A stretch of DNA of 64,000 bases from Aureivirga sp. CE67 (GTDB lineage: Bacteria; Bacteroidota; Bacteroidia; Flavobacteriales; Flavobacteriaceae), in the NCBI RefSeq assembly GCF_015767245.1, contig NZ_JADOTV010000002.1, positions 186,001-250,000 of the forward strand, read 5' to 3'. Position numbers and translations under genes: made by a program. The notes below the pieces were generated by a model. That model saw only the letters and a list, made by a program, of their open reading frames with translations. It did no database searches and was not told where the DNA came from. This document shows, piece after piece, positions 48,583 to 64,000 of the stretch (positions are counted from its first letter, which is position 1; each line of letters opens with the position of its first letter).

Positions 48583-48608
48583 CAAACCAATTGAATAGTA
48601 GCATAAAA

Positions 48609-51600
48609 ATGAGTGCAAAGTATAAAGAATATAAAGGATTAAACTTAGTACAAGCCGCTGAGGAAGTAGCGGATTTTTGGAAAACTAATAATATTTTCGA
48701 AAAAAGTATTACGTCTCGTGAAGATAACGAACCATTTGTGTTTTTTGAAGGACCACCTTCAGCAAACGGTTTGCCAGGAATTCACCACGTAATGGCACGT
48801 ACGATTAAGGATATATTTTGCCGCTACAAGACATTGAAAGGATATCAAGTAAAGCGTAAGGCAGGATGGGATACACACGGACTTCCTGTGGAACTTGGTG
48901 TTGAGAAAGAATTAAAGATTACAAAAGAAGATATCGGAACGAAGATTTCTGTAGAAGAATATAACGATGCTTGTAGAAAAGCAGTAATGCGTTATACAGA
49001 TGTATGGAATAATCTTACGGAAAGAATCGGTTATTGGGTAGATATGGAAGATCCATATGTTACTTATAAACCAAAATATATGGAATCAGTATGGTGGCTT
49101 TTAGCACAATTGTATAAGAAAGATTTAATCTATAAGGGTTATACAATTCAGCCATATTCTCCAAAAGCTGGAACAGGTTTAAGTTCTCACGAGTTAAACC
49201 AACCAGGATGTTATAAAGATGTAACAGATACTACAATCGTAGCTCAGTTTAAAGCTGTAAAAGAAACGTTGCCAGAAATCTTTGCCAATGTGGATGGTGA
49301 TGTACATTTCTTAGCTTGGACGACAACTCCTTGGACACTTCCTTCAAATACTGCATTGACAGTAGGAAAGAAGATTGATTATGTTTTAGTAAAATCATTC
49401 AACCAATATACAGGGAAAGAAATCAATGTAATTTTAGCTAAAAACTTAGTTGGAAAACAATTTGGTAAGAAATTCTTCGTAGTGGAAGATGTTGCTGAAT
49501 TAGCTAATTTTAATAAAGGAGATAATAAAATTCCTTATTTCATTGCAAAAGAATTCAAAGGAGCAGACGTTTTAGGTGTGAAATATGAGCAATTATTGCC
49601 TTATGCACAACCTTATGAAAATGCAGATAAAGCATTTGTTGTAATTCCTGGAGATTTCGTAACAACAGAAGACGGAACAGGAATTGTACATACAGCTCCA
49701 ACTTTTGGACAAGATGATGCACAAGTAGCGAAAGATGCTGGAGTTCCTGCAATGTTAGTTTTAGATGCACACGAAAATCCAGTTCCATTGGTAGATTTAC
49801 AAGGGAAATTTACAGAGCACATGGGACCTTATGCTGGGAAATATGTGAAGAATGAATATTATAATGCAAATGAAGTTCCTGAAAAATCTGTAGATGTTGA
49901 AATTGCTATTCAATTAAAAGAAGAAAATAAAGCATTCCACGTTGAAAAATATAAACACAGTTATCCACATTGTTGGAGAACTGATAAACCAGTTTTATAT
50001 TATCCATTAGATTCTTGGTTCATTAAAGTTACAGATAAGAAAGATCGTATGTTTGACTTAAACGAAACAATCAACTGGAAACCAAAATCTACTGGAGAAG
50101 GACGTTTTGGAAACTGGTTAAAGAATGCAAACGATTGGAATTTATCTCGTTCTCGTTATTGGGGAATTCCTCTTCCAATCTGGAGAACAGAAGATGGAAC
50201 AGAAGCAATTATTATTGAGTCTGTTGCAGAATTAAAAGTAGAAATTGAAAAATCAATGGCTGCTGGTTATATGGATACGAATGTTTTCGCTGATTATGAA
50301 ATCGGAAACATGAGTGACGAAAACTATGAGAACATTGATTTACATAAAAATATCGTAGATGCGGTTATTTTAGTTTCTCCTTCAGGGAAACCTATGAAAA
50401 GAGAAGCCGACTTAATCGATGTTTGGTTTGATTCTGGTTCGATGCCTTATGCACAATGGCATTATCCATTTGAAAACAAAGAATTAATCGATAATAAAGA
50501 ATCATTTCCAGCAGATTTCATCGCAGAAGGAGTAGACCAAACAAGAGGTTGGTTCTATACTTTACATGCAATTGGAACAATGGTATTCGATTCTGTAGCA
50601 TACAAAAACGTAGTTTCAAACGGACTAGTTTTAGATAAGTCAGGTCAAAAAATGTCAAAAAGTAAAGGAAATGCAGTGGATGCTTTTGAAACTTTAGATA
50701 AATATGGACCAGATGCTACAAGATGGTATATGATTTCGAATGCGAATCCGTGGGATAACTTAAAGTTTGATGTAGATGGAATTGATGAGGTTCGTCGTAA
50801 ATTCTTCGGAACTTTATACAACACTTATTCATTCTTTAGTTTATATGCAAACTTAGATGGATTTACTTATGCTGAGGATGATATCCCAACAACAGAAAGA
50901 CCAGAAATCGATCGTTGGATTCTTTCAGAATTACACACATTAATTCAAGATGTGGATAAATTCTACAAAGAATATGAGCCAACAAGAGCTACAAGAGCAA
51001 TTCAAGATTTCGTAACAGAAAACTTAAGTAACTGGTTTGTTCGTTTAAGTAGAAGAAGATTCTGGAAAGGTGAGTATGGAACAGATAAGATTTCAGCATA
51101 CCAAACATTATATAAATGTATGGTGACAGTAGCGAAATTAGCTTCACCAGTTTCACCATTCTTTACAGATAGACTTTACAAAGACTTAACAAGTGTAACT
51201 GGAAAAGATAACGTTGAATCTGTACATTTGGCTAAGTTCCCAGAGTTCGATGCTTCTATGGTAGATAAGTCTTTAGAAAGAAAAATGCAGAAGGCTCAGA
51301 AAATATCTTCGATGGTATTGTCGTTACGTAAGAAGGAAAACTTAAAAGTACGTCAGCCACTTCAGAAGATCATGATTCCAATTTTGGATGTAAATGATAA
51401 AGAAGATATTCTAGCAATTCAAGATTTAGTTCTTTCAGAAGTAAATGTAAAAGAGATTGATTTATTGGAAGATGCTTCGGGTATTTTAGTTAAAAATATC
51501 AAACCAAACTTCAAAGTTTTAGGACCAAAATTTGGGAAAAACATGAAGTTAATTTCAGCAGAGATCAATAAATTTTCACAAGAAGATATCGCTGAAATAG

Positions 51601-52010
51601 AAAAAAATGGAAGTATTTCTATTAAAATTAACGAAGAATTAGTAACTTTAGGAAAAGACGACGTTGAAATTAGCTCTCAAGATATTGAAGGTTGGCTAGT
51701 TGCAAGTCATAATAATATTACTGTTGCTTTAGATATTACAATAACAGAGACTCTGAAAAATGAAGGAATAGCGAGAGAGTTAGTAAATAGAATTCAGAAT
51801 TTACGTAAAGACTCAGGTTTAGAAGTAACTGATAAAGTGACATTAACGATTAAGGAAAACGAAATGTTAACACAAGCGATTTCTGAATATGAAGATTACA
51901 TCAAAACAGAAACACAAACGGTTTCTATAGACTTCAATAGCGAAGTTGGAAATGGTACGGATGTGGAGTTTGATGAAATTCAGACAGAAATAGCTATTCA
52001 AAAAATTTAG
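48609..52010 (+). CDS. ileS: Isoleucine-tRNA ligase, type 2, with GIHH in place of HIGH
   Basis: IleRS charges tRNA-Ile with isoleucine and edits valine. From the ATG at 48609 the protein has 1133 residues, the long type 2 (eukaryote-like) form without the C-terminal zinc finger of type 1. The class I signature normally reads HxGH; here it reads PGIHH, with Gly57, His59 and His60, so positions one and three are exchanged. KMSKS is intact (681-685), and the editing domain contains the TTPWTLPSNTAL block. A TTG at 48591 was rejected as the start. The gene is followed after 4 bp by the DksA/TraR-like gene. Confidence 0.96.
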   Translation: MSAKYKEYKGLNLVQAAEEVADFWKTNNIFEKSITSREDNEPFVFFEGPPSANGLPGIHHVMARTIKDIFCRYKTLKGYQVKRKAGWDTHGLPVELGVEKELKITKEDIGTKISVEEYNDACRKAVMRYTDVWNNLTERIGYWVDMEDPYVTYKPKYMESVWWLLAQLYKKDLIYKGYTIQPYSPKAGTGLSSHELNQPGCYKDVTDTTIVAQFKAVKETLPEIFANVDGDVHFLAWTTTPWTLPSNTALTVGKKIDYVLVKSFNQYTGKEINVILAKNLVGKQFGKKFFVVEDVAELANFNKGDNKIPYFIAKEFKGADVLGVKYEQLLPYAQPYENADKAFVVIPGDFVTTEDGTGIVHTAPTFGQDDAQVAKDAGVPAMLVLDAHENPVPLVDLQGKFTEHMGPYAGKYVKNEYYNANEVPEKSVDVEIAIQLKEENKAFHVEKYKHSYPHCWRTDKPVLYYPLDSWFIKVTDKKDRMFDLNETINWKPKSTGEGRFGNWLKNANDWNLSRSRYWGIPLPIWRTEDGTEAIIIESVAELKVEIEKSMAAGYMDTNVFADYEIGNMSDENYENIDLHKNIVDAVILVSPSGKPMKREADLIDVWFDSGSMPYAQWHYPFENKELIDNKESFPADFIAEGVDQTRGWFYTLHAIGTMVFDSVAYKNVVSNGLVLDKSGQKMSKSKGNAVDAFETLDKYGPDATRWYMISNANPWDNLKFDVDGIDEVRRKFFGTLYNTYSFFSLYANLDGFTYAEDDIPTTERPEIDRWILSELHTLIQDVDKFYKEYEPTRATRAIQDFVTENLSNWFVRLSRRRFWKGEYGTDKISAYQTLYKCMVTVAKLASPVSPFFTDRLYKDLTSVTGKDNVESVHLAKFPEFDASMVDKSLERKMQKAQKISSMVLSLRKKENLKVRQPLQKIMIPILDVNDKEDILAIQDLVLSEVNVKEIDLLEDASGILVKNIKPNFKVLGPKFGKNMKLISAEINKFSQEDIAEIEKNGSISIKINEELVTLGKDDVEISSQDIEGWLVASHNNITVALDITITETLKNEGIARELVNRIQNLRKDSGLEVTDKVTLTIKENEMLTQAISEYEDYIKTETQTVSIDFNSEVGNGTDVEFDEIQTEIAIQKI

Positions 52011-52014
52011 GGTT

Positions 52015-52401
52015 ATGATAAACGATGGAACAACAGAAAGGTATTCTGATGAAAGTTTAGAGGAATTTAAAGAGATTATTCTTGACAAGATCAAAAATGC
52101 CGAAGAAGATTTACGTTTATTAGAATCTGTTTTCAAAAACGGTTCTAGTAACAAAACGGACGATACTTCTCCGCAGTTTAAAGCTTTTGAAGAAGGATCT
52201 GAAACAATGTCAAAAGAGGCGAATGTGCAATTAGCTATTCGTCAGCAAAAGTTCATTAGAGATCTAAAAAATGCTTTGGTTCGTATTGAAAATAAAACAT
52301 ACGGAATTTGTAGAGTAACTGGGAAATTGATCCAAAAAGAAAGATTAAAACTAGTTCCACACGCTACATTAAGTATCGAGGCAAAAAAGATGCAATATTA
52401 A
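52015..52401 (+). CDS. DksA/TraR-family protein without complete zinc finger
   Basis: The 128-residue protein has the long helical hairpin of the DksA/TraR family (about 10-90, acidic) and a C-terminal globular end. It carries only one Cys, in YGICRVTGKLIQKERL; the other three zinc ligands are replaced (Thr, and the VPHATLS segment). DksA binds the RNA polymerase secondary channel and adjusts promoter output with ppGpp. Zinc-independent variants are known and common in Bacteroidota. It sits directly between ileS and lspA, a conserved flavobacterial order. Confidence 0.88.
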   Translation: MINDGTTERYSDESLEEFKEIILDKIKNAEEDLRLLESVFKNGSSNKTDDTSPQFKAFEEGSETMSKEANVQLAIRQQKFIRDLKNALVRIENKTYGICRVTGKLIQKERLKLVPHATLSIEAKKMQY

Positions 52402-52560: not shown

Positions 52561-53154
52561 TTGAAAAAAGCAGTTATTATCATAGTTCTGGTTTTATTAA
52601 TTGATCAAATTAGTAAGATTTGGATTAAAACGCATTTTGTGTTAGGGCAAGAAATTAGAGTGTTCGATTGGTTCCGAATTCATTTTATTGAAAATAACGG
52701 AATGGCCTGGGGAACGGAATTTGGAGGAGATAAAGGAAAATTATTCTTGACACTTTTCAGACTTGTTGCTATTACAGGAATTGGGTATTGGCTATATAGT
52801 TCAGTGAAATCAAAAGCTTCTAATTTATTAGTAGTTGCAGTAGCTCTTATTTTTGCAGGAGCTTTAGGAAATATTATTGATTCCGTTTTTTATGGAGTTA
52901 TTTTTAGCGAAAGTAATTATCATGAAGTAGCTACAATGTTTCCAGAAATGGGGTATAGACCTCTTTTTTATGGTAAAGTAGTTGATATGCTTTATTTTCC
53001 GATTTGGAAAGGAGATTTACCAAGTTGGATTCCAATTGTAGGAGGGAAACCATTTACTTTTTTCAATGCAATTTTTAATATAGCAGATACCGCAATTAGT
53101 GTAGGAGTAGGGATTTTGATTGTTTTCAGTAAGAAAGTATTCCCGAAAAAATAA
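52561..53154 (+). CDS. lspA: Lipoprotein signal peptidase, TTG start
   Basis: LspA cleaves the signal peptide of prolipoproteins after lipidation. The 197-residue protein has four membrane helices. The two catalytic Asp residues are in GALGNIIDSVFYG (about 106) and FNIADTAISVG (about 177). The start must be TTG: an in-frame TAA lies six codons upstream (52540) and the next Met is near residue 48, inside the first conserved block (ENNGMAWG). The length is larger than E. coli LspA (164) because of an insertion between the Asp blocks, as is usual in Bacteroidota. Confidence 0.94.
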   Translation: MKKAVIIIVLVLLIDQISKIWIKTHFVLGQEIRVFDWFRIHFIENNGMAWGTEFGGDKGKLFLTLFRLVAITGIGYWLYSSVKSKASNLLVVAVALIFAGALGNIIDSVFYGVIFSESNYHEVATMFPEMGYRPLFYGKVVDMLYFPIWKGDLPSWIPIVGGKPFTFFNAIFNIADTAISVGVGILIVFSKKVFPKK

Positions 53155-54570: not shown

Positions 54571-55107
54571 ATGAAATTATTAAAAGGATTTATCTTAACA
54601 TTAGCCCTTGGATTTGCTGTTGTTTCTTGTAATGAAGCACTAAAAACAGATTCTAAAACAGAAACTAAAGTAGAGCAAGAGTCTAAAAAAGCTGAGACTC
54701 CAGCAGAGAAACATGGAGATCATGACGGACATGATCATGGAACTAAAGCTGATGAAACTAAATCTTCTTGTTGTACTGCTAAATGTGGTGATAACTGTTC
54801 TAAAGAAAAATGTGCAAACTGTGAGAACAAAGAAGCTTGTAAAGGAAAATGTTCTGAAAAAACGATGGCTAAGCATTGTGAAACTAAATGTAGCAAAGAT
54901 TGTACGAAAGCAGATTGTGAAAAGTGTGCAGCTAAAAAAGAAGAATGTAAAAAGAAATGTGCTGCTAAGAAAGAAATGGCAGCTAAGCACTGTGAAACTA
55001 AGTGTAGCAAAGAATGTACGAAAGCAGACTGTGAAAAGTGTGCAGCTAAAAAAGAGGAGTGCAAAAAGAAATGTGCTGCTAAAAAAGAAGCTGAGAAAAA
55101 AGCATAA
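54571..55107 (+). CDS. Cys/His-rich repeat lipoprotein, metallothionein-like
   Basis: The 178-residue protein has a lipoprotein signal with the lipidated Cys20 in AVVSCNEA. A Lys/Glu/Thr linker follows, then a short His/Asp stretch (HGDHDGHDHG, about 48-57), then a Cys/Lys region. The mature part contains 22 further Cys, nearly all spaced C-x2-C to C-x4-C. Residues 100-175 are two copies of a 38-residue unit (AKHCETKCSK..., DNA 54868-54981 and 54982-55095). Composition and spacing suggest metal binding in the periplasm or on the outer membrane. I know no named family. It is a single gene with its own terminator. Confidence 0.8.
   Translation: MKLLKGFILTLALGFAVVSCNEALKTDSKTETKVEQESKKAETPAEKHGDHDGHDHGTKADETKSSCCTAKCGDNCSKEKCANCENKEACKGKCSEKTMAKHCETKCSKDCTKADCEKCAAKKEECKKKCAAKKEMAAKHCETKCSKECTKADCEKCAAKKEECKKKCAAKKEAEKKA
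54868..55095 (+). repeat. 114-bp tandem repeat inside the Cys-rich lipoprotein gene
   Basis: Two adjacent copies of 114 bp (38 codons) differ at a few, mostly third-codon, positions. The protein units differ mainly at Asp/Glu and at the last two residues. This indicates a fairly recent duplication kept under protein-level selection. Confidence 0.88.
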
Positions 55108-59724: not shown

Positions 59725-61950
59725 TTATTCAATAATAATTTTCTCAACTCTTCTTTTACCATTTATTTCTAGAGAAGCTAAATATATTCCAGGTTTTAAA
59801 GAACTGATGTTAATTTCATTTCTGGTTGCTTCAAAAGATTTTGTTAAAACTTTAGATCCTAGAATATTAATAATTGTAATATTACCTTTTTCTTCTGCTT
59901 CGATAAATAAACTTCCGGTAGCAGGGTTTGGATATAACTTGATGTTTGTTAGATTAAATTCTTCAAGACCAATATCTCCAGCCATAACAAAATCTTTATT
60001 ACCAATTGCAAAGAAAATATTATCAGAAGCTTTTACCATAATTCTAGCTTCTTCGTAATATCCAATTTGGTTTGGAATATCTACTTCTTGTTCACCATCA
60101 TTTGGGGTGTTTTCTAATAGAGGAATGATATTTAATTCATCGTTAAAATTATAAGCTATCAAGAAAATATCTACATTATCTGTATTTATAGGAGAAGCAT
60201 CTGTATTTGCTACATTCCATTTAATTGTTTTTGTTGAACCAGGTTGCCAAGTAGTTCCCTCAAATGAAGGTGTTGTTACTTTAAATGGGCCAGCTTCATC
60301 AGAAACCGTAATTTTCATATCATCTGTTTTAGATTGTCCGAATCCTGAAAAATTATCTCTAACAGTAACAGCGAAATTTAATTCTCTAGCTACGACAGGA
60401 ATCACTTCCCATTCCCATCCAAGTTCTTCGTTATCTGATTCAAAAATTGATTTGATATTTGGAAAATATCTTTTATTGTTAAATCTAGGTTTATAAGATC
60501 TAAATAAAGGATTTTTGTCTTCTGTAGCTGTAGGTTTTAAATTGGTGTAATTTAAATATCGATCTTTTTGTTCCCAACAATAAGTTAATTGATCCTCGTC
60601 AGCATCTGAACCTTCAGCATCTAGAACAAAAGCGGTTCCCATTGGAATTGTATAATCATTTCCAGCATCAACAGTTGGTGCTTGGTTGTCAAATTCAGTG
60701 ATTGCTGCACAGTTTGCACCTTCTTCATTTCTAATATGATTGGCAACTTGTAGCATATTGATTTGATTAAAATAATCATCTCCTGAATCTTGAACGTCTA
60801 AATCTCCTGAAATACCAGCGTAACTCATCACAGTCGATCCACTTCCTGGTTCAACATGATTATTATGTCCTTCAAATCCATTTGTAATATGAATATGATT
60901 TGCTCCAAACTGATGTCCCATTTCATGAGCAACATAATTAGTGTCAAAAGCATCACCTTGAGGAACACTATGTCTTGTCCAAGCACTTGCACTTTCTCCA
61001 GGAACACAAATACACCCTATAAAACCAGCATGTCCTTGTGGATTTCCTGTTGAGAATAAGTGTCCAAAATCATATTCAGAATTATTAAATGTAGAGTTAA
61101 TTGTATTTTGAATTTGTTGATTGAATTGTGATTGATCATCAGCATCCCAAGTAAAAGGATCTGTTACAGGGTCTAGGTAAATTACTTCTTCATTATCCGT
61201 TATTATGTTGATATGAATTGTGAAATCCTTTTCAAATATTCCATTTACTCTGGTCATTGTTTCGTTCATAGCAGCTAAAGCATCAGCTTTTGTGCCACCA
61301 TGATAATTAGTATATTCTGCCGTTGCTGCTATAGCAACTCTATAAGTTCTTAGTTTTCCATCATAAGAATGTCTACTTTCAATTTGATTTTCACTAATCT
61401 CAGAATTATTAGAATTCTCAGTTAAACATTCAAAATTTTGATTTAAAGTATAACCAGATTTTCGATCATAAACAGCATATAGTTCATCTTCTATATTGAT
61501 TGACTCTATAAATGTAGTTGGAGAGTCTACTGTAAATGACATACTGCTTAGTCCTTTTTGTGGAGAATAACTAAAACGAATATAGTCTGTAGTGTTTTTT
61601 GGATTTATACCAATATAAGCTCTAATTTCTGGATATTTTTCTTGTAATCCAGATTCAAAGTTGGATGCTTCTTTTACTTCATAAGAAGTGATTTTTCCTT
61701 GAGAATTAGGAAATTCAATGAATGCTCCTGTTTTATCTGTTTCAAATCTATCAGGAACATTGTTCAGTAATTGAGTTAATTTTTCTGCGTTTAACTCGAA
61801 TACTTCATATGCATGAGGATGTACTTTAGCGTAAAGTAAATCATCTGTTTTTTCAGATCTTTCAGAATTTATCCAAACAGATTGTGCTTTTAAAGAATAA
61901 GAGAATAAAGAAATAATAATTAAAATCAAGCTGGGGTAGTTAAACTTCAT
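59725..61950 (-). CDS. Secreted reprolysin-like zinc metalloprotease with T9SS sorting domain (paralogue 1)
   Basis: The 741-residue protein has a signal peptide (1-22) and a propeptide (about 25-195). The metalloprotease domain (about 200-415) has the metzincin zinc site HEMGHQFGANH (342-352) and the Met-turn STVMSYAGI. An Ig-like segment follows (about 430-600, starting NQAPTVDAGND). The C-terminal type A T9SS domain (about 670-741) begins LYPNPATGSLFIEA and ends in RRVEKIIIE. It should be exported by T9SS and cleaved at the CTD. The gene to the right is a close paralogue. Confidence 0.93.
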   Translation of the reverse strand: MKFNYPSLILIIISLFSYSLKAQSVWINSERSEKTDDLLYAKVHPHAYEVFELNAEKLTQLLNNVPDRFETDKTGAFIEFPNSQGKITSYEVKEASNFESGLQEKYPEIRAYIGINPKNTTDYIRFSYSPQKGLSSMSFTVDSPTTFIESINIEDELYAVYDRKSGYTLNQNFECLTENSNNSEISENQIESRHSYDGKLRTYRVAIAATAEYTNYHGGTKADALAAMNETMTRVNGIFEKDFTIHINIITDNEEVIYLDPVTDPFTWDADDQSQFNQQIQNTINSTFNNSEYDFGHLFSTGNPQGHAGFIGCICVPGESASAWTRHSVPQGDAFDTNYVAHEMGHQFGANHIHITNGFEGHNNHVEPGSGSTVMSYAGISGDLDVQDSGDDYFNQINMLQVANHIRNEEGANCAAITEFDNQAPTVDAGNDYTIPMGTAFVLDAEGSDADEDQLTYCWEQKDRYLNYTNLKPTATEDKNPLFRSYKPRFNNKRYFPNIKSIFESDNEELGWEWEVIPVVARELNFAVTVRDNFSGFGQSKTDDMKITVSDEAGPFKVTTPSFEGTTWQPGSTKTIKWNVANTDASPINTDNVDIFLIAYNFNDELNIIPLLENTPNDGEQEVDIPNQIGYYEEARIMVKASDNIFFAIGNKDFVMAGDIGLEEFNLTNIKLYPNPATGSLFIEAEEKGNITIINILGSKVLTKSFEATRNEINISSLKPGIYLASLEINGKRRVEKIIIE

Positions 61951-62175: not shown

Positions 62176-64000
62176 TTATTTGATGATAATTTTTTCAACT
62201 CTTCTCTTACCATTAGCTTCTAAAGAAACAAGGTAGATTCCAGGTTTTAGAGAGCTGATGTTAATTTCGTTTCTGTTAGCAGAGAATTTTTGATTTAATA
62301 CTTTAGCACCAAGAATATTGATGATTGTAACATTTCCTTTTTCTTCAGAATCAATATATAATTTTCCTGAAGCAGGGTTAGGATATACACTAATTGTAGC
62401 TAAATCAAACTCCTCTAATCCAATTTGGTTATTGTAAACAATGTATTGCTCTTCACCATTCATGATGAAATCTTTTTCTCCAATAGCAAAGAAAATATTA
62501 TCAGAAGCTTTTACCATGATTCTAGCATCTTCATAGTATCCAATCTCTGTTGGAATATCAACAGATTCTTGTCCATCATTAGGTGTGTTTTCTAATAAAG
62601 TAACAATTGATTCTCCATCGTTAGCAATTAAGAAAATATCTACACTTGCAGCATTGATTGGAGCCATATCTGTATTTTCAACATTCCATTTTACAGTTTT
62701 AGTTGATCCAGGTTGCCAAGTAGTTCCGTCAAAAGAAGGAGTTGTTACTTTAAATGGTCCAGCAGCAGTTGATATAGTTACTTTCATATCGTCTGTTCTA
62801 CTTTGACCTACTCCCATTTTGTTATCTCTTACCGTAGCAGCGAAATTTAAATCTCTTGCTACGATTGGAATTTGTTCCCATTCCCAACCAATATTTCCAT
62901 TAGTTGATTCGAAGATTGATACTAAATTAGGAAAGTATCTTTTGTTGTTATGTCTTGGTTTATAAGATCTAAATAATGGATTTTCATCTTCATTTGGAGT
63001 TGGTTTTAAAGATAAATAATTTAAGTATCTATCTTTTTGTTCCCAACAATAAGTTAATTGATCTCCATCAGCATCAGAAGCAGTAGCTTCTAATACAAAA
63101 GCAGTTCCCATAGGGATAATGTAATCATCACCTGCATCTACAGTTGGAGCTTGGTTATCAAATTCAGTAATTGAAGCGCAGTTACCACCTGAACCATTTC
63201 TTACATGGTATGCAACTTGTGCCATGTTAATTTGGTTGAAATAATCATCTCCTGAACTTTGAACATCTAAATCACCTGAAATTCCAGCATAACTCATAAC
63301 AGTTGACCCACTTCCTGGCTCTACCTGGAATTGGTGTTTTTCACCATTTCCACTTGAATTTACATTGGATACGTGTGTGTGGTTAGCTCCAAATTGATGT
63401 CCCATCTCGTGAGAAGCGTAGTTTGTATCAAAAGCATCTCCTTCAGGAATGTTGTGTCTTGTCCAAGCACTTGCACTTTGTCCTGGAACACAAATACATC
63501 CAATACATCCTGCATTTCCTTGTGGGTTTCCAGTTGAGAATAAATGTCCAAAATCATATTCAGAATTAGTAAATGTAGCACTAATTGTGTTTTGAATTTG
63601 TTGATTGAACTGAGTCTGATCAGAAGCATTCCAAGTAAATGGATCTGTAACAGGGTCTAAGTAAATTACTTCATCATTATCAGCAATTAAGTTGATATGA
63701 ACTGTAAAATCTTTTTCGAAGATTCCATTTAATCTTGTCATTGTAGCATTCATTGCAGCTAAAGCAGCAGATTTAGTTCCTCCATGATAAGTAGTATATT
63801 CTGCAGTAGAAGCTAAAGCAACTCTATAAGTTCTTAACTTTCCATCATAAGAATGTCTATTTTGAACTTCTTCGATATCTTTGATTCCAGCTTCTTCAGT
63901 AAGACATTCGAAGTTATGATCCACAGTATAACCTGATTTTCTATCATAAATAGCGTATAATCCTTCAGCTACATCAATAGACTCGATGTATGTTGTTGGA
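62176..64000 (-). CDS. Secreted reprolysin-like zinc metalloprotease with T9SS sorting domain (paralogue 2, N-terminus beyond right edge)
   Basis: The visible 607 residues align with paralogue 1 over their whole length and are identical at most positions. They cover the last part of the propeptide, the zinc motif HEMGHQFGANH, STVMSYAGI, the Ig-like region and the T9SS tail (VYPNPASGKLYIDS to RRVEKIIIK). I carried the frame past the GTG at 63924 to the edge: the residues there (TTYIESIDVAEGLYAIYDRKSGYT) still match paralogue 1, so that GTG is not the start and the gene is merely cut off. About 150 residues are missing. Confidence 0.92.
   Translation of the reverse strand, partial: PTTYIESIDVAEGLYAIYDRKSGYTVDHNFECLTEEAGIKDIEEVQNRHSYDGKLRTYRVALASTAEYTTYHGGTKSAALAAMNATMTRLNGIFEKDFTVHINLIADNDEVIYLDPVTDPFTWNASDQTQFNQQIQNTISATFTNSEYDFGHLFSTGNPQGNAGCIGCICVPGQSASAWTRHNIPEGDAFDTNYASHEMGHQFGANHTHVSNVNSSGNGEKHQFQVEPGSGSTVMSYAGISGDLDVQSSGDDYFNQINMAQVAYHVRNGSGGNCASITEFDNQAPTVDAGDDYIIPMGTAFVLEATASDADGDQLTYCWEQKDRYLNYLSLKPTPNEDENPLFRSYKPRHNNKRYFPNLVSIFESTNGNIGWEWEQIPIVARDLNFAATVRDNKMGVGQSRTDDMKVTISTAAGPFKVTTPSFDGTTWQPGSTKTVKWNVENTDMAPINAASVDIFLIANDGESIVTLLENTPNDGQESVDIPTEIGYYEDARIMVKASDNIFFAIGEKDFIMNGEEQYIVYNNQIGLEEFDLATISVYPNPASGKLYIDSEEKGNVTIINILGAKVLNQKFSANRNEINISSLKPGIYLVSLEANGKRRVEKIIIK

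Follow-up and report, generated by a model that had tools for sequence, protein, structure and literature searches.

Type 2 isoleucyl-tRNA synthetases (IleRS2s) with a G/AxHH motif, their activity and their mupirocin hyper-resistance were described by Brkic et al. 2023 (PMC10485003). A natural ALHH enzyme in that study had a mupirocin Ki of 6.6 mM and showed no catalytic trade-off, and changing its motif to HVGH lowered the Ki 823-fold. Conversely, placing GVHH into two HVGH enzymes raised the Ki by about 200- to 430-fold, and motif swapping shifted Ki values by up to 1000-fold (PMC10485003). In a T. thermophilus mutant the swap alone gave a Ki of only 35 µM; how large the effect is therefore varies with the scaffold (PMC10485003). 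Tolerance of the swap does not extend to type 1 IleRS. Among 163 type 2 enzymes of bacteria, the study counted 86 with G/AxHH and 77 with HxGH, and it proposed antibiotic exposure as a driver of the motif change (PMC10485003).

We analyzed a 64,000-nucleotide window of the Aureivirga sp. CE67 genome that contains ileS. Our analysis makes it very probable that this gene encodes the organism's sole housekeeping IleRS2, which has the published GxHH motif as an inheritance of its phylum and is expected to be highly mupirocin-resistant. Both the swap and what it does to mupirocin sensitivity were already published; the only result added here is the fixation of GxHH across the phylum.

The ileS gene and its altered class I signature

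The features of the window that are relevant to this enzyme are listed below.

48609..52010, forward strand: ileS, type 2 isoleucyl-tRNA synthetase (1133 aa plus stop; TIGR00392 and PDB matches)
48750..48788, forward strand: GPPSANGLPGIHH block, a segment of the ATP/isoleucine site that served as the survey pattern (single match in the window)
48777..48788, forward strand: GIHH motif, G57-I58-H59-H60, codons GGA ATT CAC CAC (sequence and alignments)
49680..49700, forward strand: GIVHTAP, editing (CP1) domain segment, intact (alignment to IleRS2)
50460..50474, forward strand: HYPFE, residues 618-622, motif typical of eukaryote-like/type 2 IleRS (described in PMC4861432)
50649..50663, forward strand: KMSKS, residues 681-685, second class I signature (canonical here; KMSKR in most sampled Flavobacteriaceae)
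52015..52401, forward strand: TraR/DksA-type zinc finger protein, directly downstream of ileS, a conserved neighbor
52561..53154, forward strand: lspA, lipoprotein signal peptidase (NF011369, 297.8 bits; cut-off 200)

The reading frame starts with ATG at 48609 and ends with TAG at 52008-52010. An in-frame TTG upstream, at 48591, is a possible and less likely start; homologues align with the product from residue 1 of the ATG start. No frameshift or internal stop was found in ileS. The product scored 1000.6 bits against the NCBIfam ileS model TIGR00392 (cut-off 621.4), which places it among the IleRSs. Its best PDB matches were the Priestia megaterium IleRS2 structures 8c8w (E 7e-240) and 8c8u (E 2e-238), both aligned over residues 18-1122. 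The gap between these E-values reflects the motif residues only (GVHH in 8c8w, HVGH in 8c8u).

Positions 48774-48788 read CCA GGA ATT CAC CAC and encode P-G-I-H-H (residues counted from the ATG at 48609), within the local context GPPSANGLP-GIHH. In alignments, GIHH occupies the columns of HIGH in Escherichia coli IleRS, HAGH in MupA and HIGH/HAGH in type 2 IleRSs of Bacillota, and it is in register with HVGH (8c8u) and GVHH (8c8w) of P. megaterium. The first-pass annotation had read a swap of the first and third positions of HIGH in a type 2 enzyme; the codons and these column-for-column alignments confirm the swap, and the type marks described below confirm the type. The 39-base survey pattern matched once in the window and not at all in 100 shuffles. 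By composition, 0.03 occurrences of [GA]xHH would be expected in the protein; one was observed, at the motif position. A hidden canonical motif was rejected because H-x-G-H occurs nowhere in the 1133-aa IleRS. The enzyme thus has the sequence signature of a G/AxHH IleRS2, with GIHH at residues 57-60 and no HxGH elsewhere. A second Aureivirga species has a 96% identical IleRS with the same GIHH, which excludes a sequencing error. In the ValRS of this genome the motif is still a canonical HMGH, so the change is specific to IleRS.

We assigned the enzyme to a type using marks defined in PMC4861432, namely the presence of HYPFE and the absence of Tyr59, NKIL and the zinc site. HYPFE is present. 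Ser51 aligns with Tyr59 of E. coli IleRS, and ARTIK stands in place of the E. coli NKILK. A C-terminal Cys4 zinc site and CxxC are both missing, the last of the five cysteines being residue 837. Identity to E. coli IleRS is 27.6%. Judged by these sequence marks, which all agree, the enzyme is a type 2 (eukaryote-like) IleRS.

The second class I signature varies among relatives. Positions 50649-50672 (residues 681-688) encode KMSKSKGN in Aureivirga, and the corresponding segment is KMSKRLGN in Flavicella and most Flavobacteriaceae. KMSKSKGN is also found in a subgroup of Flavobacterium and KMSKSLGN in Myroides. Among the deep branches of the phylum, KMSKS is the prevailing form. Among 116 aligned GxHH enzymes, KMSKR was counted 84 times and KMSKS 28 times. 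The switch between R-L and S-K has probably occurred repeatedly. Gene conversion as a source of KMSKSKGN was rejected, as local identity to Flavicella gives no hint of a foreign patch.

The Aureivirga sp. CE67 assembly (4.81 Mb, 99.95% complete) contains one IleRS. The further matches, at 21-33% identity, were other class I synthetases; ValRS (C46) was one of them, and a 943-aa protein on C12 was taken for LeuRS. When 41 genomes from across the phylum were searched at the protein level, each likewise had exactly one IleRS at E<=1e-150. The traR/dksA gene, whose product gives weak, below-cut-off matches to NCBIfam DksA-like models, adjoins ileS downstream in all 79 named relatives whose sequence extends far enough. 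In 70 of 80 named relatives, lspA is no more than 3 kb away from ileS. The closest named sequences in our search were Flavicella IleRSs (76% identity), and a tree built without the motif columns placed Aureivirga, its congener and Flavicella together inside Flavobacteriaceae (support 0.97). We conclude that ileS is the intact, sole, housekeeping and vertically inherited IleRS2 gene of this organism.

Two further features of the window were recorded. A small predicted lipoprotein at 54571-55107 has tandem Cys/Lys-rich repeats (AKHCETKCSKxCTKADCEKCAAKKEECKKKCAAKKE). On the minus strand, 59725-61950 and 62176-63924 encode two adjacent large proteins that closely resemble each other. They share a metzincin-type zinc site (HEMGHQFGANH) and, at the C terminus, a repeated domain of sorting-like type (YPNPA...GIYL...KIIIE/K). 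This pair is apparently a tandem duplication of secreted metalloproteases.

Distribution of GxHH in Bacteroidota and beyond

We surveyed 297 genomes drawn across Bacteroidota (in the broad GTDB sense) with a degenerate DNA pattern for GPPxxNGxP[G/A]xHH. The pattern was found in 296 of the 297 genomes, including all 293 of good quality, and in 141 of 141 genera. Classes within the phylum were judged for these genomes from kinship labels and from sequence identity (about 45-75%). In the sole miss (G292), ileS is a fragment covering residues 759-1106 only, which begins at base 2 of a contig. The motif region is absent from that assembly, so every readable genome (296/296) carries GxHH. Since a restricted-middle HxGH pattern misses HAGH, as a local control revealed, we repeated the HxGH survey with a free middle residue. 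Neither form matched in any of the 297 genomes, in a pattern survey that could miss a second, highly divergent IleRS.

Named sequences gave the same picture. GIHH or GVHH is present in all 80 named relatives (Flavobacteriaceae, with a few labelled only Bacteroidetes, Flavobacteriia or Bacteroidia) and in the IleRSs of Riemerella and Bacteroides. The first-pass annotation was right that G-x-H-H enzymes had been reported as active and mupirocin hyper-resistant (PMC10485003). Its description of them as a rare group does not hold, since the motif was counted in 86 of the 163 bacterial enzymes of type 2 in that report and in 296 of 296 readable Bacteroidota genomes here. On this evidence GxHH is an inherited trait that does not vary among the sampled Bacteroidota, and no acquired resistance trait of Aureivirga sp. 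CE67. HIGH is the wrong expectation for an IleRS in Bacteroidota, where GxHH appears universal. The text of the two key papers (PMC10485003, PMC4861432) does not name the phylum ("Bacteroid-" is absent), though figures or supplements may show it.

Outside the phylum, Nonomuraea (Actinomycetota) has GVHH and Acetoanaerobium (Clostridia) has GIHH. MupA and two Bacillales enzymes carry HxGH. These motifs fit the published account, in which GxHH enzymes form at least two groups. The GIHH enzyme from Clostridia grouped with HxGH enzymes of Bacillota in a small tree, and gains and reversions of GxHH therefore cannot be polarised with this sampling.

Two sets of records needed closer inspection. Plasmid records NZ_CP072187.1 and NZ_OY725923.1 (Riemerella, Bacteroides) carry ileS-traR/dksA-lspA, and the Riemerella one also carries lepA. 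The housekeeping neighbors are the same, and these records look like parts of a chromosome or misassigned replicons rather than mobile resistance. In G115, a 2.0 Mb genome from the same class, there is a second partial GxHH IleRS start close to a contig end (G115:C10:549-782). This is not a second full gene. It is a short piece with a 205-aa open frame that covers residues 1-78, and it is possibly contamination or an assembly remnant.

Predicted mupirocin insensitivity and the origin of the swap

Our account of catalysis and resistance is taken from other IleRS2s (PMC10485003), while sequence, type, copy number, synteny and distribution were determined here. By analogy, the third-position histidine (H59) would stand in for the missing first histidine in its ATP/transition-state role, a substitution that the shifted tip of helix alpha-1 in type 2 IleRS would permit. 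H59 would also block mupirocin by steric clash, making the enzyme highly resistant, with an expected Ki in the 0.1-10 mM range. Two mupirocin-contact residues of type 1 IleRS (PMC10485003) are absent as well: the Phe586 column holds Leu673 and the Asn70 column, assigned by eye from the alignment, holds Ala63. As the only ileS product of a complete genome, the enzyme is predicted to be active in isoleucine activation. There is good reason to expect it to be highly mupirocin-tolerant, and whole-cell tolerance would also depend on uptake and efflux. Our literature search found no mupirocin Ki for any Bacteroidota IleRS and no mupirocin MIC values for Flavobacterium or Bacteroides. With GxHH apparently universal in Bacteroidota, the hyper-resistance rule would be easy to test there in the laboratory.

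We considered several explanations for the motif. Nothing beyond its unusual residues suggests a sequencing or assembly error or a pseudogene, and the congener's GIHH in a 96% identical protein, the intact frame and the conservation across the phylum leave this reading with practically no credibility. An acquired or self-resistance copy of the MupA/MupM kind beside a normal ileS might be suspected from matches to the NCBIfam MupA/MupB models, though these score far below the cut-offs (730-744 against 1900 bits). We find such a copy highly improbable, given that the near-complete assembly has no second ileS, that no PKS dehydratase domain was found and that MupA itself has HAGH. The dehydratase search used one domain model (PF14765) and was not a full cluster search; its lack of a match in the genome means that we see no sign of a mupirocin-type modular PKS there. 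Marine makers of pseudomonic-acid-type compounds exist, as with thiomarinol in Pseudoalteromonas, and this favors the idea that competition with mupirocin or thiomarinol producers recently selected GxHH in Aureivirga or its close kin. The causal role of the motif in the hyper-resistance of other IleRS2s (PMC10485003) favors it too. We nevertheless regard recent selection as very unlikely, as the same motif occurs in every readable genome from 141 genera with zero HxGH copies, and both the tree placement and the conserved neighbors indicate vertical descent. Any selection would have acted in the ancestor of the phylum or earlier. The first-pass annotation had taken the motif as a possible pointer to competition with producers of such compounds; this claim fails against an inherited, phylum-wide trait in a conserved ileS-traR/dksA setting in a genome with no PF14765 match. 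A motif fixed across 141 genera carries no information on the ecology of Aureivirga sp. CE67, and its presence in a single genome is poor evidence of local antibiotic competition.

Historical contingency is an alternative to ancestral antibiotic exposure as the cause of the swap. GxHH could have been fixed in Bacteroidota through such contingency or through a catalytic or editing property of the scaffold, with resistance as a by-product. This is a credible explanation that we hold only tentatively. The motif is fixed in genomes that differ widely, and none of the 296 shows a reversion; this is consistent with such an explanation, as is the lack of a catalytic trade-off in the natural ALHH enzyme (PMC10485003). 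To revert, each of two codons would also have to change at two or more bases, through intermediates that hold either no histidine or two at the swapped positions. Against it, the chief effect measured for the swap is resistance, and the independent origins of GxHH in two clades of type 2 enzymes suggest that selection was repeated (PMC10485003). Whatever the original cause, we lean toward a model in which the whole phylum replaced HIGH in its only IleRS, never reverted and became target-insensitive to mupirocin-type inhibitors, with reversion having occurred in Deinococcus-Thermus. Mupirocin-type inhibitors are then unlikely to act on the IleRS target in any Bacteroidota.

Comparison with known isoleucyl-tRNA synthetases

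Type 1 IleRSs (E. coli, S. aureus) share the function of the Aureivirga enzyme and are distinguished by HIGH, Tyr59, NKIL, a C-terminal zinc site and a nanomolar mupirocin Ki (PMC4861432). MupA and MupB, the plasmid-borne enzymes of staphylococci, are of type 2 like Aureivirga IleRS and confer mupirocin resistance. MupA, however, has a canonical HAGH, shares about 36% identity with the Aureivirga enzyme and was acquired as a second copy, whereas Aureivirga ileS is a housekeeping gene. The Aureivirga enzyme falls outside the MupA/MupB family, scoring 730 and 744 bits against NCBIfam models with a cut-off of 1900, and it is the product of a single ileS.

P. megaterium IleRS2 naturally has HVGH (8c8u) and is accompanied by a second, type 1 IleRS, in contrast to the single GIHH enzyme of Aureivirga. 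His582 of the P. megaterium enzyme corresponds to Leu673 in Aureivirga IleRS. The GVHH mutant of the P. megaterium enzyme (8c8w) shows the third histidine replacing the first. The closest described relatives in kind are the G/AxHH IleRS2s of Deinococcus radiodurans (ALHH) and Streptomyces griseus. Aureivirga IleRS comes from a different phylum than these enzymes and has Gly-Ile where the D. radiodurans motif has Ala-Leu. Like these G/AxHH enzymes, it is a housekeeping IleRS2 in which positions 1 and 3 of HIGH are swapped and the third position holds histidine instead of glycine (PMC10485003, PMC4861432).
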